Assembly (NCBI GenBank): GCA_022843945.1
Contig: JALHMR010000014.1
Coordinates: 1 to 64,000, forward strand
Source of the DNA: Rhodospirillaceae bacterium
GTDB taxonomy: Bacteria; Pseudomonadota; Alphaproteobacteria; CACIAM-22H2
Direction: 5' to 3'
Length of the DNA stretch: 64,000 nucleotides
The notes under the pieces were generated by a model. It was not told the DNA's origin and searched no databases. It was given only the letters and a program-made list of their open reading frames with translations. The position numbers were made by a program, and so were the translations under genes. Shown here in pieces: positions 44,090 to 59,809 of this stretch (position 1 is the first letter of the stretch; each line of letters begins with the position of its first letter).

Positions 44090-45096
44090 TTCGCACCTCC
44101 CGTGATCTCGGCCACCTTCACCGGGCGCTTCTGCTTGTGCGAGCGCAGTGACGCCTCGGCGAGGACGAGGGCCATGCGGCCGTCTTCGGCGCCGACCGGC
44201 ATTTTCCTTTTCTTAGTCACCGCCTCGACGAAGGCCGCGAGCTCGGCCTTGTAGGCCTCGGCATAGCGCTCGAGGAAGAAGTAGAGCGGCTTGTCGGCGC
44301 TGACTGCGTCGCCGTTGGCGAGCTCGACCGTGGTTGGCGTCATGTTGCCGGCCATCAGCCGGCCCTTGGCGCCATGGACCTCGATGCGCTGGTCGTAGCC
44401 GTAAGAGGCGCGGCGGCTGTTGTTGATGTGGCAGAGCTTGCCCGAGGCCGTGCGCATGACGATCATCGTCGAATCGATGTCGCCCGCCTTGGCCACCGCC
44501 TTGTCGACCAGGCAGGAGCCGTAGGCGAAGACCTCTGCCGGCTCCTCACCCAACAGGAAGCGCGCCATGTCGAAGTCATGGATGGTCATGTCGCGGAACT
44601 GGCCGCCCGAGACCTTGAGATAGGAGAGCGGCGGCAGGCCGGGATCGCGGCTGGAGATGATGACCTGCTCGACCGCGCCGATATCCCCCTTGGCGATTCG
44701 GCTTTGGAGCGCCTTGAAGTTCGGGTCGAAGCGCCGGTTGAAGCCGACGAACATCGGCACGCCGGCCTTCTTCACGGCGGCGAGGCAGGCATCGACGCGC
44801 TTGAGCGACAGATCGATCGGCTTCTCGCAGAAGATCGCCTTGCCGGCCTTGGCCGAGGCGATGGCAAGATCGGCATGGGTAACGGTCGAGGAGGCGATGA
44901 TCACCGCATCCACACCCTTGTCGGCCAGCGCCGTCTTCACGTCGACGACCTTGGCGCCGTGCCTCTTGGCGAGGGCCTTGGCGGCGTCGGTGTTGACGTC
45001 GACGACATAGCGGATGGCGGTCCCGCCGCTGGCGGCAAGGTTGGCGGCATGGATCTGGCCGATACGGCCGGCGCCGAACTGGGCAAACGTGAGCAT
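44086..45096 (-). CDS. iolG: inositol 2-dehydrogenase-like Gfo/Idh/MocA protein
   Basis: 336-residue Gfo/Idh/MocA dehydrogenase. NAD motif GAGRIG is at 8-13, the EKP block with catalytic Lys92 at 91-93, and Asp169 and His173 (GGQFRDMTIHDFD) match the D-x3-H spacing of IolG. It oxidises myo-inositol, or an isomer, to an inosose. ATG 45096 gives the normal start; the frame is open to 45186 but that part lies in the promoter region. Divergent from iolD and coupled to the downstream SDR. Confidence 0.88.
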   Translation of the reverse strand: MLTFAQFGAGRIGQIHAANLAASGGTAIRYVVDVNTDAAKALAKRHGAKVVDVKTALADKGVDAVIIASSTVTHADLAIASAKAGKAIFCEKPIDLSLKRVDACLAAVKKAGVPMFVGFNRRFDPNFKALQSRIAKGDIGAVEQVIISSRDPGLPPLSYLKVSGGQFRDMTIHDFDMARFLLGEEPAEVFAYGSCLVDKAVAKAGDIDSTMIVMRTASGKLCHINNSRRASYGYDQRIEVHGAKGRLMAGNMTPTTVELANGDAVSADKPLYFFLERYAEAYKAELAAFVEAVTKKRKMPVGAEDGRMALVLAEASLRSHKQKRPVKVAEITGGAK

Positions 45097-45151
45097 GGGG
45101 ATTCCTGGCTGAGGCCGCCGGTGAATCCGGCTTGGGGCCTGCTTGTTGGGG

Positions 45152-45169
45152 CTGTCATAAATCCGTAAT
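45152..45169 (+). promoter_or_regulatory. PHO-box-like sequence between iolG and iolD
   Basis: CTGTCATAAATCCGTAAT matches CTGTCATAWAWCTGTCAY at 16 of 18 positions and is nearly identical to the sequence at 35509-35526. It reads toward iolD. No clear -10 follows at the usual distance, and a TTGACG on the opposite strand could instead make part of it an iolG promoter. Confidence 0.45.
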
Positions 45170-45237
45170 GTGCGGCGGCGCGTCAACTGCTAAACAACGC
45201 GCCAGCACGCTTATCGCATTATAGGGGAAACGCCCGA

Positions 45238-47076
45238 ATGGCGAGTATCCGCCTGACCGCGGCCGAGGCCACGGTCCGCTTTCTTGCCGCCCAGGAGACC
45301 GAGATCGACGGCCGGACGGTACCGCTGTTCGGCGGGGTCTGGGCCATCTTCGGCCATGGCAATGTCGCCGGGCTGGGGCCCGCCCTGCACGGCATCCGCC
45401 AGGACCTGCCGACCTTCCGGGCCCATAACGAGCAGGCCATGGCCCATGCCGCCATCGCCTATGCCAAGACCCATGCCCGCCGGCGGATGATGGCCTGCAC
45501 GACCTCCATCGGCCCCGGCGCGACCAACATGGTGACCGCCGCCGCCGTAGCCCACGTTAACCGTCTGCCGGTGCTGTTCCTGCCCGGGGACGTCTTCGCC
45601 AACCGGCGGCCAGACCCGGTGCTGCAGCAGATTGAGGATTTCGCCGACGGCACGATCTCGGCCAACGACTGCTTCCGCCCGGTCTCACGCTACTGGGACC
45701 GCATCACCCGGCCGGAACAGCTGCTGGGCGCCCTGCCCGCCACCCTGCGGGTGCTGACCGATCCCGTGGAATGCGGCCCGGTCACCCTAGCCTTCCCGCA
45801 GGACGTCCAGGCCGAGAGCCATGACTACCCGGCCGAGTTCTTCCGCCGCCGCGTCCACCGCCTGCGCCGGCCGGAGCCGGACGCCAGGGAGCTGCGCGCG
45901 GCTATCAAGGCGCTTAAGGGCGCACGCAAGCCGCTGATCCTGGCCGGTGGTGGCGTCAAGTATTCGCGGGCCGAAACTGCCCTGGCCGAGTTCGCCAGCC
46001 GGCGCGGCGTGCCCGTCTGCGAGACCCAGGCCGGCAAGGGCTCGCTCGCCTGGGACCACGCGATGAATGTCGGCTCGATCGGCGTCACCGGCTCGGCCGC
46101 GGCCAACGCCCTGGCCGCCGAGGCGGATGTGGTGGTGGTCGCCGGCAGCCGGCTCAGCGATTTCGCCTCGGCCTCGCGTACCGTGTTCCCGAAGGCCGAA
46201 CTGATCGGCCTCAATGTCGGCGGGTTCGATGCGATCAAGCACGGCGCCCGGCCGCTGGTCGCCGACGCGCGCGCCGGATTGGAGGCGCTGAATGGCGGCT
46301 TAGGCGGCTGGAAGGCCAGCAATAGCTGGACGGCCAAGGCCAGGGACCTGACGCGCAAGTGGAACACCGTCGTCGACAAGGTGACGGCGGCCCCGGCGCG
46401 CAAGGCCAACACCCTGCCGACCGACGCGCAGGTGTTGGGCGCGGTCAACCGCCAAGCTGGCAAGGACGCCATCGTGGTCTGCGCCGCCGGCGGCCTGCCC
46501 GGCGAGCTGCACAAGCTGTGGCGGGCCCCCGACGCCGCCGGCTATCACCTCGAATACGGCTATTCCTGCATGGGCTATGAGATCGCCGGCGGGCTGGGCG
46601 TGAAGCTGGCGGCCCCCGAGCGCGAGGTCATCGTCCTGGTCGGCGACGGCAGCTACCTGATGATGAACTCGGAGATCGCCACCTCGGTGGCGCTCGATGC
46701 CCGGCTGACCATCGTGCTTTTAGACAATCGCGGCTTTGGCTGCATCAACCGCCTGCAGAAGGGCACGGGCGGCGAGCCCTTCAACAACCTGCTCGACGAG
46801 GCGGCCCCGCAAGTCGACTTCGCCGCCCATGCCCACGCGCTGGGCGCCGAGGCGGTGAAAGTTGGCTCGATCGCCGAGCTCGAGCCCGCCGTGCGGCGCG
46901 CGCGCCAGGGCCGGCGCACCACCGTGATCGTCATCGACACCGATCCTCAGGTCTCGACCGCCGAGGGTGGCACCTGGTGGGACGTGCCGGTGACCGAAGC
47001 CCCGCGCTCGGCCGCCCAGCGCAAGGCCCGCAAGGCCTACGAGACCAACCGCCGCCGTCAACGCCTCGGAGTTTGA
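45238..47076 (+). CDS. iolD: 3D-(3,5/4)-trihydroxycyclohexane-1,2-dione hydrolase
   Basis: 612-residue ThDP-dependent ring-opening enzyme. It has the IolD start RLTAAEATVRFLAAQETEIDG in part, a glutamate-containing pyrimidine-domain block AHNEQAMAHAAIAYAK, and the ThDP/Mg motif GDGSYLMMNSEIATS with DNRGFG after it. It cuts the cyclic dione made by IolE to 5-deoxy-glucuronate, the IolB substrate. GGGGAAA precedes the ATG. Followed 9 bp later by iolE. Confidence 0.94.
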   Translation: MASIRLTAAEATVRFLAAQETEIDGRTVPLFGGVWAIFGHGNVAGLGPALHGIRQDLPTFRAHNEQAMAHAAIAYAKTHARRRMMACTTSIGPGATNMVTAAAVAHVNRLPVLFLPGDVFANRRPDPVLQQIEDFADGTISANDCFRPVSRYWDRITRPEQLLGALPATLRVLTDPVECGPVTLAFPQDVQAESHDYPAEFFRRRVHRLRRPEPDARELRAAIKALKGARKPLILAGGGVKYSRAETALAEFASRRGVPVCETQAGKGSLAWDHAMNVGSIGVTGSAAANALAAEADVVVVAGSRLSDFASASRTVFPKAELIGLNVGGFDAIKHGARPLVADARAGLEALNGGLGGWKASNSWTAKARDLTRKWNTVVDKVTAAPARKANTLPTDAQVLGAVNRQAGKDAIVVCAAGGLPGELHKLWRAPDAAGYHLEYGYSCMGYEIAGGLGVKLAAPEREVIVLVGDGSYLMMNSEIATSVALDARLTIVLLDNRGFGCINRLQKGTGGEPFNNLLDEAAPQVDFAAHAHALGAEAVKVGSIAELEPAVRRARQGRRTTVIVIDTDPQVSTAEGGTWWDVPVTEAPRSAAQRKARKAYETNRRRQRLGV

Positions 47077-47085
47077 ACCTTTCCC

Positions 47086-47973
47086 ATGTCTGTCCGCATC
47101 GGTATCAACCCCCTCACCTGGACCAACGACGACATGCCGGAGCTCGGCGGCGACACGCCGCTCGAGACCTGCCTGAAAGAGGCCAAGCAGGCCGGCTATG
47201 CCGGCGTCGAGCTGGGCAACAAGTTCCCGCGCAAGGCGCCGGAGCTGCGGCCGATCCTCGCCCGCCACGATCTCGACCTGGTCTCCGGCTGGTATTCGTC
47301 CCGTCTCCTGGAGCGCACGGTCGAGGCGGAGAAGGAGGCGATCGTCCCGCACCTGACGCTGCTCGCCGACATGAACTGCCCGGTGATGGTCTATGCCGAG
47401 GTCAGCCGCTGCGTGCATGGCGAGCGCAAGGTGCCGCTGTCCAAGCGCCCGGTGCTGGCCGAGAGCGAGTGGAAGGAGTTCGGCCGCCGCCTGACCGAGA
47501 TGGGCCGCTACCTCGAGCGCCGGGGCCTGCGCCTCGCCTATCACCACCACATGGGCACGGTGATCGAGACCGAGGCCGAGATCGACCGGCTGATGGCCGA
47601 GACCGGGCCCGAGGTCGGCCTGCTGCTCGACACCGGGCACCTGACCTATGCCGGGGGCGATCCCGTCGCCACGGCGCGGCGCCACGCCCAGCGTATCGTC
47701 CATGTCCATTGCAAGGACGTGCGGCCCGCCATCCTCAAGGCGGCGCGGGCGCGCGACGCTAGCTTCCTCGATTCGGTGCTCGACGGCGTGTTTACCGTGC
47801 CCGGCGACGGCTGCGTCGAATACCGCCAGGTGCTGAAAGAGGTCGCCGAGGCCGGCTACAACGGCTGGCTGGTGGTCGAGGCCGAGCAGGACCCGGCCAA
47901 GGCCCACCCCCTGACCTATGCCCGCATGGGCTTCGACAACCTCTCGGCCCTGGCCCGCGGGGCGGGGTTATAG
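47086..47973 (+). CDS. iolE: inosose dehydratase
   Basis: 295-residue TIM-barrel protein of the AP-endonuclease-2-like family. IGINPLTWTNDDMPELGGDTP at the start is diagnostic of IolE, as are LAYHHHMGTVIE, LLLDTGHLTYAGGD and HVHCKDVRP, which supply metal ligands. It dehydrates 2-keto-myo-inositol to the diketone used by IolD. Cotranscribed with iolD. Confidence 0.93.
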   Translation: MSVRIGINPLTWTNDDMPELGGDTPLETCLKEAKQAGYAGVELGNKFPRKAPELRPILARHDLDLVSGWYSSRLLERTVEAEKEAIVPHLTLLADMNCPVMVYAEVSRCVHGERKVPLSKRPVLAESEWKEFGRRLTEMGRYLERRGLRLAYHHHMGTVIETEAEIDRLMAETGPEVGLLLDTGHLTYAGGDPVATARRHAQRIVHVHCKDVRPAILKAARARDASFLDSVLDGVFTVPGDGCVEYRQVLKEVAEAGYNGWLVVEAEQDPAKAHPLTYARMGFDNLSALARGAGL

Positions 47974-47987
47974 GTCGAAGCACCGAC

Positions 47988-48485
47988 GTGCCCGAAAACC
48001 ATCGTTTCGCCTCGGATGCGGAGTATCTGCCGGAATTGCGGCGCCTGATTCTTGCAAACGACGTACGCATCGATTTCGACGCTGGGCATCTGCGCGGCAT
48101 GGACAGCCCGGTGGCGATCGAGGCGGAGGTGATGTGGTGGGCGATGTTTATTCTAGCCGCGACCGGCCTCGCATTCTGGTGGCAAGGCTGGGAGTTTGCG
48201 GCTGGAGTCGCGGTCGCCGCCGGTCTCGTCTATGCCACTCTCGGCAGGCGCTGGCTGGCGCGTAACCTGCGCTCGCGTGTCATGGGCAAAGCGCTTGCGG
48301 ATATTGGTATCTGGCGCAAGCTCTGGCGGCATGGCGGCGTGTCCTTGCATTGCACGGCGGCTGGACCGGCTCCCGCGCTAGAGTGCCGCGCGTCGAACGA
48401 GAGCTGGGTACGATTTGTCGAGGCGATTCTTCAATCCAGGCAGGGCACTGCGCTGGGCTCCGAGGACATAGCTGCCGAGCGTTGA
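47988..48485 (+). CDS. two-segment membrane protein, unknown
   Basis: 165-residue frame starting at GTG 47988, 15 bp after iolE. Two hydrophobic segments lie at about residues 48-65 and 70-84, with Trp-rich ends (WWAMFILAATGLAFWWQGWEF) and basic flanks on the following loop. The rest is cytosolic, with no domain I recognise. It may be cotranscribed with iolDE. Its codon use is less biased than that of iolE. Confidence 0.55.
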   Translation: MPENHRFASDAEYLPELRRLILANDVRIDFDAGHLRGMDSPVAIEAEVMWWAMFILAATGLAFWWQGWEFAAGVAVAAGLVYATLGRRWLARNLRSRVMGKALADIGIWRKLWRHGGVSLHCTAAGPAPALECRASNESWVRFVEAILQSRQGTALGSEDIAAER

Positions 48486-48582
48486 GCGGCGCGACTCTCG
48501 GCCCTTGCCCGCGGTGCCGGTCTATAAGACTTTAGGAGTGGCCGGTCCTTATCGGTTCAATGCTGACGCCATAGGAGCAGGC

Positions 48583-50544
48583 GTGGACGCCGACAAACTC
48601 ATCGCCATCCTGCAGCGTGGCGTCGCAATGCATCGCGATGGGAAAACCGTCGAAGCGGCGGCGGCCTACGCAGAGGCGTTGCGGATCAGCCCTGGCAATC
48701 CGGATGCCCTCAACCTGCTGGGCGTCGCCAAGGGCGCACTAGGCCTTGCCAGTGAAGCAGCGGCGCTTATACGGCAGGCGATAGCTGCAAGTCCGTCGAA
48801 CGCAGCTTATTACGTCAATCTCGGCAAAGCTCTTGCTGACGGCGGCGATCTCGATGGGGCTACGGCGGCTTATCAACAAGCGGCGCAACTGGCACCTGAA
48901 AACCCTCTCGTTGCCTACAATCTCGGCGTCACGCTGAAGGAAGCCGGCAGCCTCGGTGATGCCGTCTCGGCACTCCGGCGCGCCACGGAGCTTGATCGAG
49001 GCTTTGTCGAGGCGTGGTTCGCGCTAGGCACGACCTGTCGGGCCAACGAGGACGTCGCGGCGGCGATCGAAGCTTATCGTCACCTGCTTTCTCTTGAGCC
49101 CCGCCATACGCGCGCTGCCTTCAATCTAGCAAACGCGCTGCGCGATGCCGGCAACGTTGACGCCGCTATAGTAACCTACAATCAGGTCATAGCCCTTGAT
49201 CCGGCCAATGCCGGAGCCCACGTGAACCTAGCCAACCTTCTTCTTGCCGCGGGGCGGATCGGCGACGCCCTGACCGAATACCGGCGCGCGTTGACCATCG
49301 ATCCCACCCTCGCAATCGCACACAGCAATTTGATCTTCGCTCTCGACCACGATGCGACAGCAACAGTCACAGAACAGCAGGCTGAGCGCACCCGATGGTT
49401 CGAGCGCCACGGGCGTGGCCTGGCGATGTCCGTGTCGGCGGAGTGCTCGCGCGAGCCGTCGCGCCGACTCCGGCTTGGTTATGTCGGTGATTTCAGGCCG
49501 CACTCGGCGTCGCGTTGTTTCGGCCCGATCCTGCGGGCACACGATCGCAATCAGTTCGATGTGGTGTGCTATTCAACCAGCCGCAGCGAACGCGATATCC
49601 TACCCGAGCTTCGGGCCGCAGCGTCCACCTGGCACCATGTCACCCCGCTCAGCGACGAGACGCTAGCCGAGCGCATCCGCGCCGATGAAGTGGATATTCT
49701 CATCGATCTCTGCGGCCATGCGGAAGGGAATCGCCTGGTTACCTTCGCGCGCAAGCCGGCCCCTATCCAGGTAACCGCCTGGGGTCACGCAACCGGCACG
49801 GGCTTGTCCACCATGGACTATTTCTTGGCCGACCCAGTCGCCGTGCCACAATCCGAACGAACTCTATTCGCCGAATCGATTTGGGACCTGCCCTGCGCGA
49901 TCGTCTGCGATCCGCCGGACAGACTCCCGCCGCTGGTGCCGCGACCGGTCGGATACTCACAACTGACGTTCGGATGTCTCAACCGCGCTTCGAAAATCTC
50001 ATCTCAGGTCTGGGCCACTTGGGCACGCATTCTCGGCGCAATCCCTGGCTCCCGGCTTCTGCTGAAGGATTGGCAATTCAATCTGCCGGAGCAACGGGAC
50101 CGGGCGAGCGCTTATCTCCGCCAGTTCGGCGTGTCGCCGGAACGTCTGACCCTGTTGGGCGGGACGACCCATCAGGAGCATCTTTCTGCCTATAACATGA
50201 TCGATATCGCCCTGGACCCGTTTCCTTTGGGCGGCGGCATCAGCACGGCCGAAGCATTGTGGATGGGCGTTCCCGTGGTGGCCTGCCGCGGCAAGACCGT
50301 CGCCGGCCGAATGTCGGCAAGCGTTCTCACCGCTCTTGGCCTCTCTGACTGGATCGCTGAAGACAAAGAACAATATGTCATTCTCGCCCTACGTCGAGCT
50401 CGCGACACGGCAGGACTCGCCCGACTATCCGCCGAACTGCGCCAACGCCTGGCCGCTGCGCCGGTCGGCAGCGCGGCGCTCTACACCCGCGCGGTCGAAG
50501 CGGCTTACCGTGAGATGTGGCGGCGCTGGTGCGCCAACCCATAG
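48583..50544 (+). CDS. TPR-GT41 (OGT-like) glycosyltransferase
   Basis: 653-residue protein. Residues ~5-260 hold about seven tetratricopeptide repeats with the usual N-P-A and LG-A-L spacing. Residues ~295-640 are an O-GlcNAc-transferase-like catalytic region: LGYVGDFRPHSASRCFGPILR in part, PAPIQVTAWGHATGTG, a LTFGCLNRASKIS block, and DIALDPFPLGGGISTAEALWMGVPVVA near the sugar-nucleotide site. It should glycosylate Ser/Thr of proteins in the cytoplasm. GTG 48583 has AGGAG just upstream; the frame opens to 48505. DNA is visibly lower in GC than iolE. Confidence 0.85.
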   Translation: MDADKLIAILQRGVAMHRDGKTVEAAAAYAEALRISPGNPDALNLLGVAKGALGLASEAAALIRQAIAASPSNAAYYVNLGKALADGGDLDGATAAYQQAAQLAPENPLVAYNLGVTLKEAGSLGDAVSALRRATELDRGFVEAWFALGTTCRANEDVAAAIEAYRHLLSLEPRHTRAAFNLANALRDAGNVDAAIVTYNQVIALDPANAGAHVNLANLLLAAGRIGDALTEYRRALTIDPTLAIAHSNLIFALDHDATATVTEQQAERTRWFERHGRGLAMSVSAECSREPSRRLRLGYVGDFRPHSASRCFGPILRAHDRNQFDVVCYSTSRSERDILPELRAAASTWHHVTPLSDETLAERIRADEVDILIDLCGHAEGNRLVTFARKPAPIQVTAWGHATGTGLSTMDYFLADPVAVPQSERTLFAESIWDLPCAIVCDPPDRLPPLVPRPVGYSQLTFGCLNRASKISSQVWATWARILGAIPGSRLLLKDWQFNLPEQRDRASAYLRQFGVSPERLTLLGGTTHQEHLSAYNMIDIALDPFPLGGGISTAEALWMGVPVVACRGKTVAGRMSASVLTALGLSDWIAEDKEQYVILALRRARDTAGLARLSAELRQRLAAAPVGSAALYTRAVEAAYREMWRRWCANP

Positions 50545-50548
50545 CTCT

Positions 50549-51550
50549 CTATCGCCATATTTTTGTATAGCGCGACTGGACCGGCTTGCGGTCCGCTGTC
50601 GATTGCGCGGTCTTCCTGGCGATGATCACGAAATCATAGATCGCGTTGTCGAGGCCACCATACGACACCGCATCCAGATCACCCGGCCGGTAATCGCGCC
50701 CTTCCCAGGGTTCGGTCAAATGCCTGATGGTATGCCGATAGAGCTTCATCGCGGCGATATCGTAGCCGTTCGCCGAGTAGTAGTCGTGAAACAGCGTCGG
50801 CGAGAGTTGATAGAACCCGTGATCGATGTAGTTGTTGGACGGCGCGATGTGGATGACATAGCCGCCGATAGCCAGCGAATGAAAGATATTGCGGAATACG
50901 GCTGGCACATCGAAGCAATGCTCGGTGGTGCCGGAGTCGATCAACAGATCGTAGGGCTGCCCGAGATGCCGGGACAAACCCTCTTCGTTGAGATCGAAGA
51001 CGTGCGTCGCGCCTTCGAAGCCACTGGCATCGACGCTATGCGCCTCCTTGAAGCCGAGCCCGGCAAAAAAGAGCTGGTCCGTTATCCAGCCATAGGCGCG
51101 AAACGCCTCCGCCGTCGTGAGGTGTTGCCCCGCACCGATCACGCGGTTGATCCGCGCCATGCTGGCCGGCGACCCGACCAGCGCCCCCTTGTCGTCCTTC
51201 CGCTGTACGATGTTGTGGCGCACCAGAAGCTCGACGAAGTCGTGCATCGTCAATTGGATATCCTGCCGGCCCAGGGTCAGGCAACGACCCGAAAGGCGCC
51301 GAGCAGCGCAAAACTCCGCGATCAGGTCAGCAACAGGCGGGGCAATTCCCAATTCCAACTCCCGGAAGGCCGGATATCTCTGGTGGAGGAGAAGTGAGCT
51401 TGAGGCTGAAGTCAACTTGCGATGCGGTACGCGGCACAAGCGCGGCCTATGAGTACCCTTTTTATTTGTGGCGGGTGTGGTTGCATCACGGCGATGCCAA
51501 ATCACTTCGACATTCCAGCACCTTGCCGCCGGGCGAGCCTCGGATTTCAC
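50549..51550 (-). CDS. methyltransferase-like protein
   Basis: Up to 333 residues, SAM-methyltransferase-like: a strand-turn at LTLGRQDIQL, LLIDSGTTEHCFD in the place of motif II, and GGYVIHIAPSNNYIDHGFYQLSP after it, as in surface-polysaccharide methyltransferases. The classical GxGxG is not clear. The first ~45 residues look unlike protein, so the real start may be a TTG near 51415. It lies between the tail-collar gene and the convergent glycosyltransferase, in lower-GC DNA. Confidence 0.65.
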   Translation of the reverse strand: MKSEARPAARCWNVEVIWHRRDATTPATNKKGTHRPRLCRVPHRKLTSASSSLLLHQRYPAFRELELGIAPPVADLIAEFCAARRLSGRCLTLGRQDIQLTMHDFVELLVRHNIVQRKDDKGALVGSPASMARINRVIGAGQHLTTAEAFRAYGWITDQLFFAGLGFKEAHSVDASGFEGATHVFDLNEEGLSRHLGQPYDLLIDSGTTEHCFDVPAVFRNIFHSLAIGGYVIHIAPSNNYIDHGFYQLSPTLFHDYYSANGYDIAAMKLYRHTIRHLTEPWEGRDYRPGDLDAVSYGGLDNAIYDFVIIARKTAQSTADRKPVQSRYTKIWR

Positions 51551-51569
51551 AAACCAGTTTCACTCGTGA

Positions 51570-53033
51570 TCAAGCCTTAACGATGAAGTTCGAGATGATA
51601 GTCGGCTGGGTGTTCTGATGCGTGCCGCTACCGCCTGCACTGCTTGTGAACACCCCTGCGAAAGCCTGAGTGTTTGGCGGCTCATTGTATGTGCCATCAG
51701 TCATAAGTGTCAGCGCACTCTGAGCAGTGCTAGTGCCCTTTACGATGCTGTGACTATGTGAGGGCATTTCCGTCATAGACAGCGTATGCGTCTGGCTCCC
51801 CCCGCTCGCCCCCAGCGTCGTGCCTGCAACCCCCGCCCCGCCCACCGTCAGCCGGTTCGCCGCGCTCGCCCCGCCCATGTCGTCCTTGCCGGCCTTCACC
51901 CGGCCGCGGTCGTCGCGCACGTTGAAGGTCGTGCTGCCGTCCCCGGCGCCGTAGGTCGTGCCCCATTCGTCGAACAGGCCGCGATAGTCGGTGCGGCTCA
52001 GCGCCTGGGCGTTGAGCCAGGCGAAGCCGCCTTCCGGCAGGGTGTTGCTGCCCCACTCGATCACCTGGCCGACCCTGCCGCTCGGCCGCTTGCTCACCGC
52101 CCAGGCGCCGGAGGCCGTGCGGGTGACCTCGACCTCCTCCCGGCCCGGCACACGCAGGCTCGTCTGCCCGTCGATCGTATCGCTCGCGGCGCGCAGGAGC
52201 CGCACCCCCTTCCCGTCCGTCTGGTTCTTCACCCGGACAAAGAAGCCGTCGGCCACGGACGAGGCGGCCGGCAGGGTGCAGTCCGCCGAGGCGCCGGCGG
52301 GCGTCACGACGTAGAGCACGTTGCTGGCGGCATTGCCGGCGGTGAAGTCGGCGGTCTGGGCTGAGACGGCCGGGCTGACCGCGACCAGCGCGAGCACATC
52401 GGCGGCCAGCGCCACCTTGATCGCATCGCCGTCGCTGGTGTCGCCGAGCAGGATCTTGTCGCCCGACGCCGGCGTTACCGAACCAAGGGTCGATGGAGCG
52501 AGGCGGATCGTGCTGCCGTCGATGGCGATGCCGTCATCGGCGACCAGGACCTGCCCGCTGACCGTCGCGGCCTCCGGATCTCCCGTCGCCGCATTGAAGC
52601 CGAGGATCTTGCCCTTGCGCGTGTCCCGGGCCGGCAGGGCGGCGATGGCGGTCGCGTCGGCCAGCGGCTGGCGCAGGGAGCGCAGGCTGGCATCGATGAG
52701 CTGCTGGACCAGCACGGTGAGGCGGTCGAGCGCCTTCTCGTTCTCCTCGGCGGGAAAGCTGCCGAGCGCGACAAGGTCGAGCCCCTGGGTCGCTGGCACG
52801 TCGCGCACCAGCACGACCGGGGCCTCATCGGCCGGGGCGACGGCGAACAGGACCTGGCCGCCGCCGGGCTGGCCAATCCCGGTCAGCGTGTAATCGCTGC
52901 CCAGGCTCTTCAGCCCATCGGCCACGTAGACCTTGAGGTCCGCCGCGGCGAAGATCCGGTTGTCATAGGTGAAGGAGACGCTCTCCCCGTCGCCGGCGTA
53001 GGCCCAGCGGTTGGTGGTCGACGAGACGGTCAT
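51570..53033 (-). CDS. phage-type tail fibre/collar protein
   Basis: 487-residue protein. The N-terminus (TVSSTTNRWAYAGDG...FAAADLKVYV) resembles the podovirus tail-fibre attachment domain. The central part is Ala/Gly-rich. A phage tail-collar domain lies at ~325-390 (LPEGGFAWLNAQALSRTDYRGLF in part), and a Ser/Thr/Gly-rich tip follows with an HSHS motif. The last ~70 codons, below about 51785, are clearly less GC-rich than the rest, so the tip may have been exchanged. No other phage genes surround it. Confidence 0.85.
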   Translation of the reverse strand: MTVSSTTNRWAYAGDGESVSFTYDNRIFAAADLKVYVADGLKSLGSDYTLTGIGQPGGGQVLFAVAPADEAPVVLVRDVPATQGLDLVALGSFPAEENEKALDRLTVLVQQLIDASLRSLRQPLADATAIAALPARDTRKGKILGFNAATGDPEAATVSGQVLVADDGIAIDGSTIRLAPSTLGSVTPASGDKILLGDTSDGDAIKVALAADVLALVAVSPAVSAQTADFTAGNAASNVLYVVTPAGASADCTLPAASSVADGFFVRVKNQTDGKGVRLLRAASDTIDGQTSLRVPGREEVEVTRTASGAWAVSKRPSGRVGQVIEWGSNTLPEGGFAWLNAQALSRTDYRGLFDEWGTTYGAGDGSTTFNVRDDRGRVKAGKDDMGGASAANRLTVGGAGVAGTTLGASGGSQTHTLSMTEMPSHSHSIVKGTSTAQSALTLMTDGTYNEPPNTQAFAGVFTSSAGGSGTHQNTQPTIISNFIVKA

Positions 53034-53085
53034 GCAAGCCTCCAGCGGATTTTCACGCCAGGAGATATGGCCGACTATCCATTTC

Positions 53086-53121
53086 GTCTAGAGGTCATTT
53101 TGTCTATAGACATTTGTAGAC
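53086..53121. promoter_or_regulatory. GTCTA/TAGAC cluster upstream of the tail-collar gene
   Basis: GTCTAGAG at 53086-53093, the perfect palindrome TGTCTATAGACA at 53101-53112 and GTAGAC at 53116-53121 lie 50-90 bp before the tail-collar start, in an AT-rich pocket. It could be an operator. No candidate repressor gene adjoins it. Confidence 0.4.
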
Positions 53122-53304
53122 TTGCCCGGGTGGCAAGCGGAGCCCGTTTACCGGTGAACCGGGGTTGGGTAACCGGCTGCACCCCGGCCTGTGACGGAAG
53201 CGGGACCATATCCACATTTTCCTGTCACATAGCCCTTATGGCCCGGCCGGCGGCCCGTCACTTTCGGGTAAGGTGGCTCCAGGCACTCACCCTGGAGGGG
53301 CAGA

Positions 53305-53553
53305 ATGCAACGCGAACCGCACCGAACCATGACCGCGCTGATGGGTGAGAACACCGGCGACCCGGGAGAGGACGCCTTCGGCCGCATCGTCAAGAATGCG
53401 ATCCGCAACGGCCGCCTGACCGCGGCCGAGATCCTTGAGCTGCGCTCCGTGATCGCGGCGGCCTTCCAGCTCGATCCGCTCGACGACGCACCGGCCAGCG
53501 ACACCGACTGGCGGGAGACCAAGGCGGCACCGCCCGTCACGACGCTGCATTAG
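53305..53553 (+). CDS. small protein, 82 residues, unknown
   Basis: Frame starting at ATG 53305 behind GGAGGGG. The central part (DAFGRIVKNAIRNGRLTAAEILELRSVIAAAF) is predicted helical and the ends are charged and disordered. No membrane segment and no recognised family. It faces the methyltransferase gene, with 25 bp between the stops. Confidence 0.5.
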   Translation: MQREPHRTMTALMGENTGDPGEDAFGRIVKNAIRNGRLTAAEILELRSVIAAAFQLDPLDDAPASDTDWRETKAAPPVTTLH

Positions 53554-53578
53554 CCCCGCGCCCCTGGATCCGCCCTCC

Positions 53579-54814
53579 CTATATCCGCAGGGTGACCAGG
53601 CCGAAACGCCAGAGCGATTCGAAAAAGGCGCGGCCGAACTCGCGCGCCTGGCCCGGGGCCGGAAAGACCCGGGCGGCGATCTGGCCGATCGTGGCCCGAC
53701 CGTCGATTAGGCGGCAGGCGGCGGCCATCTCCGGCCCGAGATGAAAGACGTTGCCCAGCCGCTCGATCGAGAGCGGTGTGGCCGGATGGTCCGGATTCTT
53801 CGCAAGGCGCAGCGAGCGTCGGAGATGCGGCACGTAGGCGAAGCAGCGCTCGCCGGAAAAATCGATCGTGTAGCTGGCCCTCGCCCGGTCGGGCCGGCAG
53901 GCAATGAAGAAGTGCCGGGCGATATCGGCCGAGAACAGCTCGGCCGCCGACCACAGCTCGGGAAGGGAGAGACGGCCGATCGCCTGGACCGCCCGGCTGT
54001 CCGCCGGCAGCCGGGCCCGCGGGTCATAGCGGCCGCTCTCCAGCCAGCCCTGGAAAACCAGGCCCGCCCCAGCGACGAAATCGAGGCAGTCGCGCACCGT
54101 GTAGCTGCGCTCGCGCTCGTGCAGGAAGAGATCGACCATGCCGGCGTCGAACTGCGTGTCGCGCGAGCCAAGCGCCGCCTTCACCGGATGCTGGGCCGGC
54201 ATGCGCTCCAGGAGCTCGCGCGCCAGGGCGATCGAGCGGGGGCTCTGGTCCAGCCCCAGGAGCCTGAACAGCGCCTGCGCCGCCTCGACACCCTGCCGCG
54301 CGTGCTTGCCATACAGCATGAGCACGACCACCCCGTCGCGGCGCAGCAGCGGGACAAGCGCCCGCAAGCCGGTGAGCGGATCGGCAAGATGGTGGAGAAC
54401 ACCAGTGGAAATGATGAGATCGAAGTCGCGGCCGAGAGTGCCGGCGGCCTCGATCGGCAGCCGCGCGAGATCGAGATTGTCGAGCCGATGCCTGTCCTTG
54501 AGCCGCCGCTCGTGCGCCAGCGAGGCCTCGCTGACGTCGATGCCAGTGACCCGGGCCGTGGGGTTGCCGAAGGCGATGGCTGCGGCCTGGTTGGCGCCGC
54601 AGCCGGCCACCAGGATCTCCAGCCCTTCAGGATACTCGCGGTCCGGCCAGTAGAGGCGGTGGTTCACCGACGGGTCGGCCTGCTCGTAACTCTCGCGCGA
54701 CGCCGCCTCGAGATCCTCGATCGGATTGGGATAGATCCAGCGCTCGTACTGCCGGGCGACGTCGTCCTCCAGCGGATCGGCGGACGGCATGCCGCGGGAC
54801 AAAGACAGACTCAT
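53579..54814 (-). CDS. class I SAM methyltransferase with C-terminal winged-helix-like part
   Basis: 411-residue protein. Motif I is ILVAGCGANQAAAIAFG at ~66-82, the acidic motif II is TGIDVSE and motif IV is DLIISTGVLHHLADP. The last ~70 residues (IDGRATIGQIAARVFP then a helix) resemble a PqqD-like small domain. Possibly a peptide- or protein-directed methyltransferase. Monocistronic on the minus strand, beside the 82-residue protein. Confidence 0.78.
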   Translation of the reverse strand: MSLSLSRGMPSADPLEDDVARQYERWIYPNPIEDLEAASRESYEQADPSVNHRLYWPDREYPEGLEILVAGCGANQAAAIAFGNPTARVTGIDVSEASLAHERRLKDRHRLDNLDLARLPIEAAGTLGRDFDLIISTGVLHHLADPLTGLRALVPLLRRDGVVVLMLYGKHARQGVEAAQALFRLLGLDQSPRSIALARELLERMPAQHPVKAALGSRDTQFDAGMVDLFLHERERSYTVRDCLDFVAGAGLVFQGWLESGRYDPRARLPADSRAVQAIGRLSLPELWSAAELFSADIARHFFIACRPDRARASYTIDFSGERCFAYVPHLRRSLRLAKNPDHPATPLSIERLGNVFHLGPEMAAACRLIDGRATIGQIAARVFPAPGQAREFGRAFFESLWRFGLVTLRI

Positions 54815-54852
54815 GGGCGGGCGTCAGGCTAAAGCAACCAACACGGGATACT

Positions 54853-54866
54853 GTGACAGTCGTCAC
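54853..54866. promoter_or_regulatory. GTGAC-N4-GTCAC inverted repeat
   Basis: GTGAC at 54853-54857 and GTCAC at 54862-54866 sit in the divergent region between the methyltransferase and racemase-fold genes, followed by 60 bases of strongly AT-rich DNA that probably holds promoters. Confidence 0.35.
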
Positions 54867-55001
54867 TCGTATAACGCATATAAATATAGAATCTAATATC
54901 GTTTAGCAATTTTACTTATAAAAAATGCGGGTGCTCTGGCCGATGCTATTTGACGACCGATCTGCGATAAGCAGGCCGTTTCAGGCGGAACGGAGGCGGC
55001 A

Positions 55002-55778
55002 ATGCCGAAAGCGCGGATCTGGTACCAGAGCTTCGTCCACCCGGTGGAGCAGGCGCCGTATATCGAGCGCCTGCAGCGGCTCCTGGACAGCGTTGCCGCG
55101 CCGGACGTGAAATTCGAGGTCCACGGCCTGTCGCCGCCCGACCACCTCTTCCATCCGTTGACCGAATTTCGCTGCGCCGCGCAGACTATCCGCGCGGCGC
55201 TCTCGGCAGAGAAGACTGGCTACGACGCCTTCGTCATCGGCCATTTCCAGGAGCCCGGCCTGCTCGAATGCCGCGGCGCGCTCGGCATCCCGGTGATCGG
55301 GCTGGGCGAGGCGAACCTTCTCGCCGCCTGTGCGATGGGTCGTAAGATCGGGCTGGTGACCATCGACCCACTGTTCATTCCCTGGCACGAACGCCAGGTG
55401 GCGGCGCATGGGCTGGGCGAGCGCGTAGTTGGCGTGCGCGCCATCCAGGCCGACCTGCCCGCCTTCATGCGCGCCTTCACCGAGGAGGGCGCCTATGCCG
55501 CGACCCGGACCGCGTTCATCGAGCAGGTGCGCCCGCTGGTGAGGGCCGGCGCCGAGGTTCTGATCCCCGCTGGCGGGCTGCCGATGCTGCTCTTCGCGCG
55601 CGAGCGACCGTTCACCATCGATGACGCCCTGGTGCTCAGCGGCATCCCGGTAGTCGCCAAGGCGGCCGAGATGGCGCTGTCGCTGCACCGTCTGACCGGC
55701 TCGGTGGTCAGCCGGCGCGGCACCTACGCCAAGGCCCCGCCGGCCGCCATCGAGGAGTATCTCGGCAGCCGCTGGTAA
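55002..55778 (+). CDS. Asp/Glu/hydantoin racemase-fold protein without catalytic cysteines
   Basis: 258-residue protein with the two-domain aspartate/glutamate racemase fold. The first active-site cysteine position (CFGDPG in hydantoin racemase) reads HFQEPG, giving His81; the second (GCAGM) reads PAGGL, giving Ala190. Cys58, Cys90 and Cys110 lie elsewhere. A two-base racemase mechanism is therefore unlikely; it may be a lyase, decarboxylase or isomerase of the family. GGAGGCGG precedes the ATG. It is convergent with the alpha/beta hydrolase gene. Confidence 0.82.
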   Translation: MPKARIWYQSFVHPVEQAPYIERLQRLLDSVAAPDVKFEVHGLSPPDHLFHPLTEFRCAAQTIRAALSAEKTGYDAFVIGHFQEPGLLECRGALGIPVIGLGEANLLAACAMGRKIGLVTIDPLFIPWHERQVAAHGLGERVVGVRAIQADLPAFMRAFTEEGAYAATRTAFIEQVRPLVRAGAEVLIPAGGLPMLLFARERPFTIDDALVLSGIPVVAKAAEMALSLHRLTGSVVSRRGTYAKAPPAAIEEYLGSRW

Positions 55779-55800
55779 TCGGCGGACCGCCGCGCCAAGA

Positions 55801-56820
55801 CTAGCCCCGGTAGACTGGCTCCGGCTGGGCAAACCAATTCAGCAGCATGTGATGGGCGATCGCGTAGTTCTTGCCCTGGAAGCTGGCGTGGCTGATGCCC
55901 GGCATGACGGCGAAGGTCTTGTCGGGATTGGGCAGCTTGGCGAAGAACTTGACCAGGTCCTCGAAGCTGGCGATGCCGTCCCACTGGCCGCGCATGATGA
56001 TGGTGGGGGCGGTGATCTTCTCCGGATCGCAGACCGGCAGGTTGGCGCACATGTCGACATAGGTGCCGGTGGGCACGGAGTCGTCAAGCTTGAGGATGGC
56101 GTCGGCGAAGGCGTTGATCACCGCCTCGTCGGCCGAGCCGGGGTGGTCGCGGTTGAAGATCGAATGCACGAAGGCGCGGTCGATCGGCCGGCGGTTCTTG
56201 GCGCGGAACTCGTCGAGGCGCTTGGCCCGCTGCTCGAGGGTCGGGCTGCCCTCGCCGGTCCACACCATGGCGTCGAGCGCCAGGCGGGAGACGAGATCGG
56301 GATTGCGCTGGGCGAACAGGGCGGCGCGCAAGGCGCCCGAGGAGATGCCGTAGGTCAGCAGCTTCCTAGACCCGCGCAGCTTGCGGATATAGGTGGCGGC
56401 GGCCAGGCAGTCATCGGCGCCCTGGCTGATCAGGGCCTTGTTGTCGCGACCCTTCTCGGACTTGCCGTAGCCCTCCATGTCGACGCACCAGACGTCGTAG
56501 CCGGCCCGGGCCAGCACATCCATGATCGAGGAATCGCTGCGCCCGGGGACCTGCAGATCGAAGGTCGGCGTCGAGGCCATCGACGAGCCGTGGACCAGCA
56601 GCACCGTGCCGCGCGTCTTCTTCGGGTCGCCTACCACCTTGTTGAACAGGTAGAGCTTCACCTTCTCGCCGTTGTCGATCTTGTACGTCCAGTGCTCGGT
56701 GCCCTTCGGCTTCACCAGGCCGGCGGACTTGGTGGCGGGCTTTTTCGCCGCCTTGCGCGGTGCGGTGCGGCGCAGCGCGGCGCCCTTTTTCTTGGCGGTC
56801 TTCTTCCTGGCTTTGGCCAT
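55801..56820 (-). CDS. alpha/beta hydrolase with Lys/Ala-rich N-terminal tail
   Basis: 339-residue hydrolase. Residues 1-40 are a Lys/Arg/Ala/Pro tail like histone H1 or PHA-linked tails. The fold starts with VLLVHGSS (oxyanion region), the nucleophile is Ser160 (GISSG), the acid is probably the Asp of MRGQWDGIAS and the histidine that of GISHAS near the end. ATG 56820 follows CAGGAGACC. It ends 32 bp after the ABC ATPase gene in transcription order. Substrate unknown; an ester or lactone is likely. Confidence 0.83.
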   Translation of the reverse strand: MAKARKKTAKKKGAALRRTAPRKAAKKPATKSAGLVKPKGTEHWTYKIDNGEKVKLYLFNKVVGDPKKTRGTVLLVHGSSMASTPTFDLQVPGRSDSSIMDVLARAGYDVWCVDMEGYGKSEKGRDNKALISQGADDCLAAATYIRKLRGSRKLLTYGISSGALRAALFAQRNPDLVSRLALDAMVWTGEGSPTLEQRAKRLDEFRAKNRRPIDRAFVHSIFNRDHPGSADEAVINAFADAILKLDDSVPTGTYVDMCANLPVCDPEKITAPTIIMRGQWDGIASFEDLVKFFAKLPNPDKTFAVMPGISHASFQGKNYAIAHHMLLNWFAQPEPVYRG

Positions 56821-56852
56821 GGTGGTCTCCTGCTGAATTAACCGAACGTGTT

Positions 56853-57944
56853 CTAGCCGGCCTGGCGGCCGAATACCGTGCACTGACGCGGATCGAACTC
56901 TAGCGCGACGGAATCGCCGACGCCAAACAGCACGGTCGGATGGGTCTGGACGCGCAGGCGCGCCTCGTTGGCGCCGGCGACGACGTACTCGTTCATGTTG
57001 CCGAGAAAGGTGAGCTCGGCCACGCGCGCGGGCATCGAGGCGCCGTTGCCGCTGCCGGCCGCGCCCAAACGGATATTCTCCGGCCGGATGGCCACGTCCA
57101 CCGCATCGCCGTGCGCCATGCCCGCCGGCACATCGACCGGCAGCTGCGGTCCGCCGTCGAGAGCCACGCGGCCGCGCGCCTCGCCCGTCCCAACGACGCG
57201 CCCCGGCACGAAATTGACCTGGCCCATGAAGTCGGCGACCACCCGGTTGGCGGGTCGCGAGTAGATGTCGCGCGGGCTGCCGTACTGCTGCAGCACGCCC
57301 AGATGCATGACCGCGATCTCGTCCGACAGGGCCAGCGCCTCGGACTGGTCGTGGGTGACGTAGACGAAGGTGATGCCGGTGCGGCGCTGGATCTGCTTGA
57401 GCTCGCTGCGCATGCGCTCGCGCAGCTTGGCGTCGAGGTTGGAGAGCGGCTCGTCGAGCAGCAGGATGCCCGGCTCGACCACCAGCGAGCGGGCCAGGGC
57501 CACGCGCTGCTGCTGGCCGCCGGAGAGCTGGCTGGGCAGCCGGTCCTCGTAGCCCTGCAGGCCGACGAGATCGAGCATGGCCATGACCTTGGTCCTGATC
57601 TCCGCCGAGCCCAGGCGGCGGATCATCAGCCCGAAGGAGACGTTCTCGAACACCGTCTTATGCGGCCAGACGGCGTAGTTCTGAAAGACCATGCCCATGC
57701 CGCGCTTGTCGGGCGGCGTCACGCCTTCCGGCGAGGAGACCACCGTGCCGTCGACCTGGATCGTGCCGGTGTCGGGCTTCAGGTAGCCGGCGATCAGGCG
57801 CAGGGTGGTCGTCTTGCCGCAGCCCGAGGGCCCCAGCAGCGTGACGAAGCGGTTGTCGGCGATGTCGAGCGAGAAGGTCTGCACCGCCGCCAACTGGCCG
57901 CCGGCGTAGTGCTTCGACAGATTGTCGATCTGGATGCGCGCCAT
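56853..57944 (-). CDS. ABC ATPase, FbpC/PotA class
   Basis: 363-residue ATPase: GPSGCGKT Walker A near 38-45, FQNYAVWPHK Q-loop, LSGGQQQR signature, LLLDEPLSNLDA Walker B and a TOBE domain from about 240. It is 6 bp after the permease gene. With the next two genes it forms a Fe(III)- or small-anion-type importer. The alpha/beta hydrolase gene follows. Confidence 0.9.
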   Translation of the reverse strand: MARIQIDNLSKHYAGGQLAAVQTFSLDIADNRFVTLLGPSGCGKTTTLRLIAGYLKPDTGTIQVDGTVVSSPEGVTPPDKRGMGMVFQNYAVWPHKTVFENVSFGLMIRRLGSAEIRTKVMAMLDLVGLQGYEDRLPSQLSGGQQQRVALARSLVVEPGILLLDEPLSNLDAKLRERMRSELKQIQRRTGITFVYVTHDQSEALALSDEIAVMHLGVLQQYGSPRDIYSRPANRVVADFMGQVNFVPGRVVGTGEARGRVALDGGPQLPVDVPAGMAHGDAVDVAIRPENIRLGAAGSGNGASMPARVAELTFLGNMNEYVVAGANEARLRVQTHPTVLFGVGDSVALEFDPRQCTVFGRQAG

Positions 57945-57950
57945 GCCCTG

Positions 57951-59657
57951 CTAATCCGATGTTGTGGCGCGCTGGCCGCCCAGCCGGTTGGCGATCAGGA
58001 TCGCGACGCCGATGATGATCATGTTGATGTTGGCGAGCGCCGAGACCGGCTCGATATAGCCGGTCTCGTAGAGATTGAAGATGGCCACGGCGACGGTGAT
58101 CGAGCTCGAGCTGAAGAGCAGGATCGAGGCGCTGAGCTCCTGGATCGCCGGCACGAAGACCAGCAGCCAGCCGGCGAACAGGCCTGGCCGGATCAGCGGC
58201 AGGGTGATGTGGCGCATGGTCTGCAGCCACGAAGCGCCGAGGATATGGGCACTCTCCTCCAGCGAGGAGTCGACCTGGCGCAAGGAGGCGTTGGCGGCGC
58301 GCACGCCCAGCGGGATGTAGCGGCCGGTATAGGCGAGCAGCAGGATGGCGATGGTGCCGTAGAGCGCGAACGGCGTGGCCAGCCAGAACTGGATCAGCGC
58401 CACCGCCATGACGATGCCCGGCAAGCCCAAGGGAATAAGAGAAGCATAGTCAAGGAAGCGGCGACCGGTGAGCTGGGTCCGCAGGTCGATCCAGCCGATG
58501 ATCGCCCCGATCAGCACGGCGAGCGACGCCGCCAGCGCGGCCAGAAGAAGCGAGTTGCCGATGGCGCGCTGGGTCACGTCGTACTGGAACAGCACGAAGC
58601 GGTAGTGCTGGAGCGTGACGTTCTCCCACGACCACAAGCCCACCGACTTGATGAACGAGACGCCGATCAGCGAGGCGTACGGAGCGGCGATGGCCACCAG
58701 GAACACCACCACGGTGAAGCCGAACATCACCCAGCGGAAGGGCCCGAGGTCGATGAGCTGCGGCCGGCTGCCCTTGCCGCCCAGCGTCACATAGGAGCGC
58801 CGCGCCAGATAGCCGCGCTGCAGGAACAGCGCGATCACGGTGATGGCCACGAAGATCAGCGACAGCGCCGAGGCCAGGCCGTATTGCGGCGGATAGTCGA
58901 ACAACGCGTAGATGCGCGTCGGCAGCGTGTAAATGCGGCCCGGGATGCCGACGATGGCCTGGCTGCCGAACAGCGCGATGGCATTGACGAAGGCCAGCAG
59001 GGTGCCCGAGAGCACCGCCGGCGCCACCAGGGGTGCGGTGATCTGCAGCGCCGTGCGCCACTTCCCCGCCCCCAGGATCTGCGCCGACTCCTCGTAGGAC
59101 GCGTCCACCGATTCGAGCGCACTCGTCGCCAGAAGGTAGACGAAGGGGAAGGTGTGCAGCACCGTGACCACCACCAGCCCGGCCATCGAGAAGATGTTGA
59201 AGGTCAGGAAATCGAGCCCGGCGCTGCGCAGGGCGGCGTTGATGAGCCCGGCGTTCGGCCCGAACAGGTTGACGAAGGCGATGGCGGTCAGGAACGGCGG
59301 CGTCAGGTACGACAGGCTGGCGGTCAGCCGGATGAAGCCCTTGAAGGGCGTGTTGGTGCGGCTCACCGCCCAGGCCAGCGGCAGGCCGATGAGCAGGCTG
59401 AACAGCCCGGTCCACGCCCCGAGCACCAGGGAATTGATCAGCGCCCGGTAATAGAGCGGCCGCTCCATGGCGCGCACGAAATTGCCGACCGAGAAGCCCT
59501 CGTCCTCGCTGCTCACGCTGCCGAGGATGAGCGAAGCCAGCGGCAGCACGACCAGCACGATGAGCGAAGCGATGGCCCCGCCCATGACGATGTGCTCTAG
59601 GCGGATCCCCCCGGTCTTCGGCCGGGCAAGCGTGGCGGGCGCGGCTATGGTGACCAT
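57951..59657 (-). CDS. ABC permease, two fused MetI domains (FbpB class)
   Basis: 568-residue fused permease with about 12 membrane segments. EAA loops are ASYEESAQILGAGKWRTALQITAP around 195-218 and SSLEESAHILGASWLQTMRHITLP around 470-493. Starts at ATG 59657. It is separated from the binding-protein gene by the REP-like pair at 59679-59779. Confidence 0.9.
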   Translation of the reverse strand: MVTIAAPATLARPKTGGIRLEHIVMGGAIASLIVLVVLPLASLILGSVSSEDEGFSVGNFVRAMERPLYYRALINSLVLGAWTGLFSLLIGLPLAWAVSRTNTPFKGFIRLTASLSYLTPPFLTAIAFVNLFGPNAGLINAALRSAGLDFLTFNIFSMAGLVVVTVLHTFPFVYLLATSALESVDASYEESAQILGAGKWRTALQITAPLVAPAVLSGTLLAFVNAIALFGSQAIVGIPGRIYTLPTRIYALFDYPPQYGLASALSLIFVAITVIALFLQRGYLARRSYVTLGGKGSRPQLIDLGPFRWVMFGFTVVVFLVAIAAPYASLIGVSFIKSVGLWSWENVTLQHYRFVLFQYDVTQRAIGNSLLLAALAASLAVLIGAIIGWIDLRTQLTGRRFLDYASLIPLGLPGIVMAVALIQFWLATPFALYGTIAILLLAYTGRYIPLGVRAANASLRQVDSSLEESAHILGASWLQTMRHITLPLIRPGLFAGWLLVFVPAIQELSASILLFSSSSITVAVAIFNLYETGYIEPVSALANINMIIIGVAILIANRLGGQRATTSD

Positions 59658-59678
59658 GCGTCTTCTTACGGAGGGTCA

Positions 59679-59779
59679 CCCCCACCCCACCCTCCCCCGT
59701 CGAGGGGGAGGGAGAAGACGGGAATGGCTCGCCTCTTAAAGTCCCCTCCTCCCTTGCGGGGGAGGGTTAGGGTGGGGAG
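59679..59779. repeat. REP-like palindrome pair
   Basis: Two GC-rich palindromic units in opposite orientation: CCCCCACCCCACCCTCCCCC plus its partner GGGGGAGGG at 59679-59712, and CCCTCCTCCC...GGGGGAGGG...GGTGGGGAG at 59742-59779. Units of this CCCTCCCCC/GGGGGAGGG type are common intergenic repeats in alphaproteobacteria. It lies between binding-protein and permease genes. Confidence 0.75.
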
Positions 59780-59809
59780 TGCTGCTTCACGCACCGGGAC
59801 TACTGTCAG

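Follow-up and report, generated by a model that had tools for sequence, protein, structure and literature searches.

Among the described systems closest to the one analysed here is RcGTA, a siphovirus-type particle that has a tail-fibre gene, rcc00171, among its unlinked genes. The RcGTA genes lie at five loci, and a shared palindromic box is not described in the part of the source drawn on here (PMC11409702). In Caulobacter, loss of RogA or an excess of GafYZ induces the CcGTA cluster together with several distant loci, which include the tail-fibre homolog ccna_02456, and the operator of RogA is a dyad, GGAA-N4-TTCC (PMC9632790, from the portion available). R-M controller (C) proteins, which appear to be the subject of PMC5282649, are a further point of comparison.

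Here we describe an orphan tail-fibre gene in a window of 64,000 nt, the whole stretch of DNA analysed, on contig C14 of a 5.38-Mb draft genome in 82 contigs (Table 1). Our favoured reading, in which we place moderate confidence, is that it is an unlinked, co-regulated tail-fibre gene of the podovirus-type element resident on contig C42 of the same genome, with a recombined tip. As far as the cited portion of the CcGTA source allows, and judging from genes alone, the two systems look alike in a phage-like structural cluster with distant loci that include a fibre, in few regulators and in dyad operators (putative ones here), but ours is an element of podovirus type (PF12236 connector) with another box and dyad, and its box-linked genes are dominated by HNH_repeat and Mrr proteins. 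RcGTA, in the part of PMC11409702 mentioned above, likewise has cell-recognition genes away from the head-tail cluster, although its particle is not of the podovirus type. The arrangement of a structural cluster on C42 with seemingly co-regulated unlinked genes (the fibre, one gene on C29 and one on C36) looks like that of a GTA.

Table 1. Features of the orphan fibre locus, in positions of the window.
Feature	Position	Strand	Remarks
TPR-GT41 glycosyltransferase gene, convergent, no box	48505..50544	+	PF13844, 9e-41
Methyltransferase-like gene, downstream of fibre	50549..51550	-	PF13489 and PF08242 matches, weak and below cut-off
Orphan tail-fibre gene, 487 aa	51570..53033	-	ORF; phrog_1640, phrog_9116; Collar over cut-off
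Low-GC C-terminal tip, codons 416-487	51573..51788	-	GC3 0.597 vs expected 0.905 +/- 0.032
Phage Tail Collar domain PF07484, residues 322-379	51897..52070	-	E 9e-11
Predicted N-terminal docking domain, residues 1-155	52569..53033	-	60% identity to C42 element fibre
-10-like hexamer CATATC, 43 nt from box start	53064..53069	-	
Imperfect dyad AGACGAAATGGAT, operator-like	53077..53089	-	2 mismatches to AGACN5GTCT
Putative regulatory box, core palindrome TGTCTATAGACA at 53101-53112	53094..53122	-	Recurs at 14 other genome places

A sequence-only reading had claimed a tail-collar gene at this place, and an ORF is present there whose Collar match scores 42 bits against a curated cut-off of 24, the only such match in the genome. 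Residues 1 to 124 of the product matched phrog_1640 'tail protein' (E 1.3e-31), tail-fibre PHROGs matched as well, and residues 1 to 119 were similar to T7-type podovirus fibres and tailspikes such as Dpo31 (PDB 28lx, E 3e-12), all of which points to a T7-type tail-docking domain. Pfam PF03906 does not reach the orphan fibre and stays under its cut-off for the copy on C42. Unlike in Dpo31, the distal part is made of the Collar and a histidine-containing tip, not of a depolymerase. The GC content lay between 0.70 and 0.79 across the segments of codons 1 to 415 and was 0.528 in codons 416 to 487, while GC3 was 0.87 to 0.96 (about 0.93) before the step; the expected value for the tip comes from 400 re-codings in which its residues were kept and codons were drawn from the usage of seven neighbouring genes (GC3 0.87-0.94). 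The computed profile therefore bears out the GC-rich N-terminal and collar parts, the low-GC last ~70 codons and, within a few bases, the boundary that had been placed near 51785. Since the step lies at synonymous sites and related collar tips (42-50% identity) are carried in other genomes by otherwise different proteins, the proposal of an exchangeable receptor-binding tip is supported, and the last ~72 codons would be a recombination product from a lower-GC source. Full conservation of the gene across the genus is excluded because the one congener compared, G001, has no fibre match, and the genes that flank the fibre have distant relatives only.

The gene also deserves the name of orphan. 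With 15 proteins of the C42 element as queries (E 1e-4), no phage gene besides the fibre was found in the window or in C14:60001-100000; part of the window ORFs were scanned against family libraries, and a very divergent phage gene could escape. Tail-tube genes, which stand beside the C42 copy and relatives, are absent beside the orphan in the same two stretches, and in this it differs from typical T7-type fibres of podoviruses. A second copy of its N-terminus, 60% identical, was the one at C42:20745-21206 (61 genomes searched). In the class as a whole, 53 of 385 genomes had matches (E 1e-12), the C42 fibre being the closest and the next one reaching 46% identity. A tree built from 39 N-termini placed the orphan and its C42 counterpart together as sisters, with moderate support (83/95). 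Of 20 stretches fetched around N-terminus relatives, 12 had tail-tube matches, as podoviral clusters do; several of the other eight end at contig ends and two contain just the collar part. Over the part shared with the C42 fibre, the frame of the orphan is open, with dN 0.35 and dS 0.66 (dN/dS ~0.53). Two of the N-terminus relatives, G017:C70 and G023:C101, look orphan at first, but phage-like ORFs surround them (by eye), so that a recurrent class of orphan fibres is not claimed.

The C42 element comprises terminase small- and large-like genes, a head-tail connector (PF12236, 8e-122), a capsid gene (PF19821, 3e-64), tail-tube-like genes, named from gene position and our own reading since Pfam gave nothing useful, a fibre, a radical-SAM protein and a 3TM holin of GTA type (PF11351), a domain known from phages too. 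Its portal is 37 to 42% identical to those of Pelagibacter podoviruses. Neither an integrase nor a replication gene was seen on C42, a contig that starts beside the XRE gene described below. A tRNA-Val adjoins the element and no duplicate of its 3' end was found on C42, so no att pair is claimed. Possibly, the element has been domesticated.

What the sequence-only reading missed is a putative promoter/operator by which the orphan is connected with the C42 element and with a family of nuclease-like genes. It came from a DNA comparison of positions 45000-60000 with C42, which gave two short extra matches upstream of the fibre. Exact copies of the palindrome TGTCTATAGACA, which lies 67 nt ahead of the fibre ATG, stand upstream of the C42 portal unit and of the C42 capsid unit, and the fibre thus has its own putative promoter region with a box common to both. 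A 17-mer of the box, with up to two mismatches, was located at 14 distinct places of the genome (24 hits, since a palindrome is matched on either strand); a control read backwards gave none. A sequence profile made from these 14 sites, and therefore bound to match them, added one more to make 15. The first genes after the box are, besides this fibre and the portal and capsid units of C42, those of eight HNH_repeat proteins, a C29 gene like C42 ORF12322, a C36 gene resembling small terminases (phrog_4044, E 3e-6), an Mrr-type nuclease (PF04471) and a transposase. The site added by the profile (L141:6757-6777) is the one before the transposase gene, which is of IS1595 type. Each of the 15 boxes is followed by an ORF of the same strand, with 33 to 81 nt to the start codon in 13 of them (the start used for C11b is probably too early); the distances on C42 are larger, 234 nt for the capsid and ~600 nt, with small ORFs between, for the portal. 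Among 61 genomes, the 17-mer with one mismatch occurred only in this one and in G001. A looser two-box pattern gave one match in each of four other genomes, two of them identical in sequence, which we take as chance, and a degenerate pattern in three contigs (two of Bacteroidetes, one of Alcaligenaceae) was set aside for the same reason. Searches of a limited set of open-access literature listed no description of such a box-linked system.

When the 14 own promoters were aligned on the box, the highest 6-mer information fell at offset 43 (CCATAT-like), a value reached by none of 2000 shifted sets, and offset 21 gave another peak (TTGAAA/CTGGAA-like). Adding the G001 sites moved the top peak to offset 21 (TTGAAA-like), followed by offset 43, in a set that is not clean, for it holds both strands of each palindrome. 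The two hexamers, with ~17 nt between them, resemble -35 and -10 elements. No motif was preselected in this positional test, which makes it the sole unbiased test of the promoter layout; the list of hexamers and the dyad were picked after inspection. Of the 11 box stretches of this genome that were fetched from contigs other than C14 and C42, eight contain one perfect AGACN5GTCT dyad each, near the gene; the window plus C14:60001-100000 contain none, with about 0.66 expected per 64 kb. The layout suggests activation at an upstream site and repression at a downstream one, both made from AGAC/GTCT half-sites. In three of five G001 sites examined (L234, L235, L147) the DnaA-box-like sequence GTGGATAA precedes the box by exactly 61 nt, and the 84 kb of G001 sequence that were fetched contain it four times; it is absent at all 14 own sites, and a DnaA-box explanation of the box was rejected.

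Concerning the regulator, the XRE gene at C42:449-769 encodes 106 aa and is flanked by two perfect AGACN5GTCT dyads plus the variant GGACAAAATGTCC. Over 79 aa its product shares 87% identity with a protein of G001; it finds matches of 24 to 37% in 23 other genomes and weakly resembles PADLOC Control_protein (E 4.5e-4). A small ORF divergent from the XRE gene (L032:853-1077) has a weak GcrA match under the cut-off (E 0.002). The HNH_repeat family was found at nine places here and at seven in G001, two of them fragments, with one weak match in the 23 others. All six members scanned exceeded the 26-bit cut-off of PF18780, and those from C26 and C40 were assigned by alignment; the ninth paralog (C29:5317-6075) has a half-dyad and no box. 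The box precedes each of the five intact G001 members and the G001 Mrr gene in a similar layout. As box, HNH_repeat family and small XRE occur together here and in G001 alone, a combination shown by none of 23 further relatives in which each of them was sought, they appear to travel together, and since G001 keeps them without a fibre match, the regulon would not need the fibre. In the C-terminal domain of the family (for example, L135:9764-10603) the motifs FPD, RIE.E and CDLIVCW are invariant and look PD-(D/E)XK-like, which makes it a putative nuclease; no related solved structure was found. The protein had no match in 50,697 phage and 72,556 plasmid records, and viral contigs gave neither its relatives, nor those of the fibre, nor the exact box.

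On account of this co-occurrence and of the sites beside its gene, we take the XRE protein as the candidate binder of the AGAC/GTCT-built sites, and it is predicted to switch the element, the fibre and the nuclease-like genes together. The orphan fibre would then dock on the short tail of C42 type, present a different, collar-type receptor-binding tip and give C42 particles a second receptor specificity. As the C42 fibre itself is intact, the orphan may also be redundant or silent. Like R-M controller proteins, this system seems to join a small XRE protein with paired dyads (upstream of the -35 and near the start) and putative nuclease targets, but its targets are dispersed in the genome and include phage structural genes. 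The half-sites differ too, AGAC/GTCT here against GACT/AGTC in the C-box of R-M controllers.

Tail fibres that stand alone are commonly written off as leftovers of prophages, and the alternative that survives best is of this kind: a further podoviral prophage of the same lineage, now mostly deleted, of which the fibre would be a fossil that keeps its phage promoter by chance. Its phage origin is certain, and the low-GC stretch with the adjoining methyltransferase-like gene and the lack of any further phage gene nearby would suit such foreign debris, yet the frame is open and dN is on average below dS relative to C42. On C42 the homologous fibre stands within a row of genes and has no box to itself, the nearest being 6 kb upstream, so a simple remnant would not carry one as the orphan does; besides, the unit of a stand-alone box plus gene is found at 12 other unlinked places, mostly with non-virion genes. 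We regard a remnant as unlikely. Less probable still is a mobile unit of box and gene (MITE- or homing-like), where the box would be a hitch-hiking repeat or an insertion target scattered by transposition. The 15 dispersed copies, the one before the IS1595-type transposase and the predominance of HNH_repeat, a repeat named for homing endonucleases, are in its favour, but the sequences from box to gene are unrelated among sites, with just the fixed-offset hexamers and the AGAC/GTCT dyad recurring, the HNH_repeat paralogs are only 39 to 57% identical to each other despite near-identical boxes, and the layout recurs in G001.

The neighbours of the fibre had been described as lower in GC, and they are: GC 0.590 and GC3 0.725 for the methyltransferase-like gene and 0.628 and 0.679 for the GT41 gene, against a GC3 of 0.87-0.94 in the reference genes. 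The methyltransferase-like frame starts 20 bp past the fibre on the same strand, its first ~90 codons are low in GC3 and may be non-coding, and its true start is probably internal. One distant match outside its own genome was found among the 61 genomes, and the shared box is absent before either gene. In spite of their low GC and of the closeness of the methyltransferase-like frame, it is very improbable that the fibre is an exchangeable receptor-binding or surface protein decorated by these two enzymes, a proposal left unsupported by the phage tail-docking domain at its N-terminus, by a methyltransferase family nearly absent from the 61 genomes and by five tip relatives with no modifying enzyme apparent beside them (ORFs judged by eye in flanks of ~1.5 kb on each side).

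The reading of the orphan as a co-regulated fibre gene of C42 has a parallel in the box-preceded gene of C29 (L139:9715-11178). Residues 1 to 256 of its product are 83% identical to those of C42 ORF12322 (L032:12322-14076), with a dN/dS of ~0.23 over the shared part, and the remainder is unrelated. In both this gene and the fibre the N-terminus is kept from a C42 protein (83% and 60%, respectively) and GC3 is near 0.9 over most of that part, while the C-termini are unrelated to the C42 counterparts and lower in GC3. The dN/dS ratios (~0.53 for the fibre and ~0.23 for the C29 gene) are consistent with constraint rather than free decay, and a kept docking end with a swapped business end is what we would expect interchangeable particle parts to look like. 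As an observation apart, the common N-terminus, unrelated C-termini and GC3 drop of the C29/C42 pair also follow a polymorphic-toxin-like design.

Tentatively, one may go further and see here a dispersed, domesticated podoviral system with an XRE switch, the C42 particle, unlinked spare parts and an HNH_repeat and Mrr battery, though we think this rather doubtful. The spare parts would be two virion genes, the C14 fibre and the C29 ORF12322-like gene, whose docking N-termini are conserved and whose C-termini are swapped; the terminase-small-like protein would be a further unlinked component, and the battery would consist of the eight scattered HNH_repeat genes with Mrr. If true, it would be a gene-transfer or killing particle with specificity modules and DNA-cutting enzymes spread over the chromosome. 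In either case a signature ties an orphan fibre to an element and a nuclease-like family, with XRE as candidate regulator and 15 sites as candidate regulon, and it becomes testable whether, beyond the known GTAs of siphovirus type, spare parts of phage-derived particles are maintained in bacteria as unlinked genes under common control.

Other features of C42 deserve mention. Two of its ORFs, L032:810-2405 and L032:3755-4249, have an N-terminal stretch in common (by eye), and the longer one contains LPD3 (PF18798, 2e-15). A 122-aa protein at C42:22237-22605 (L033:2237-2605) has the C-terminal end NCNCNCANCDCSTCP, and ~2 kb past it lies the radical SAM/SPASM protein (C42:24759-26090, L033:4759-6090; phrog_1802 6e-50, SPASM TIGR04085), which might modify it as a virion-associated peptide.
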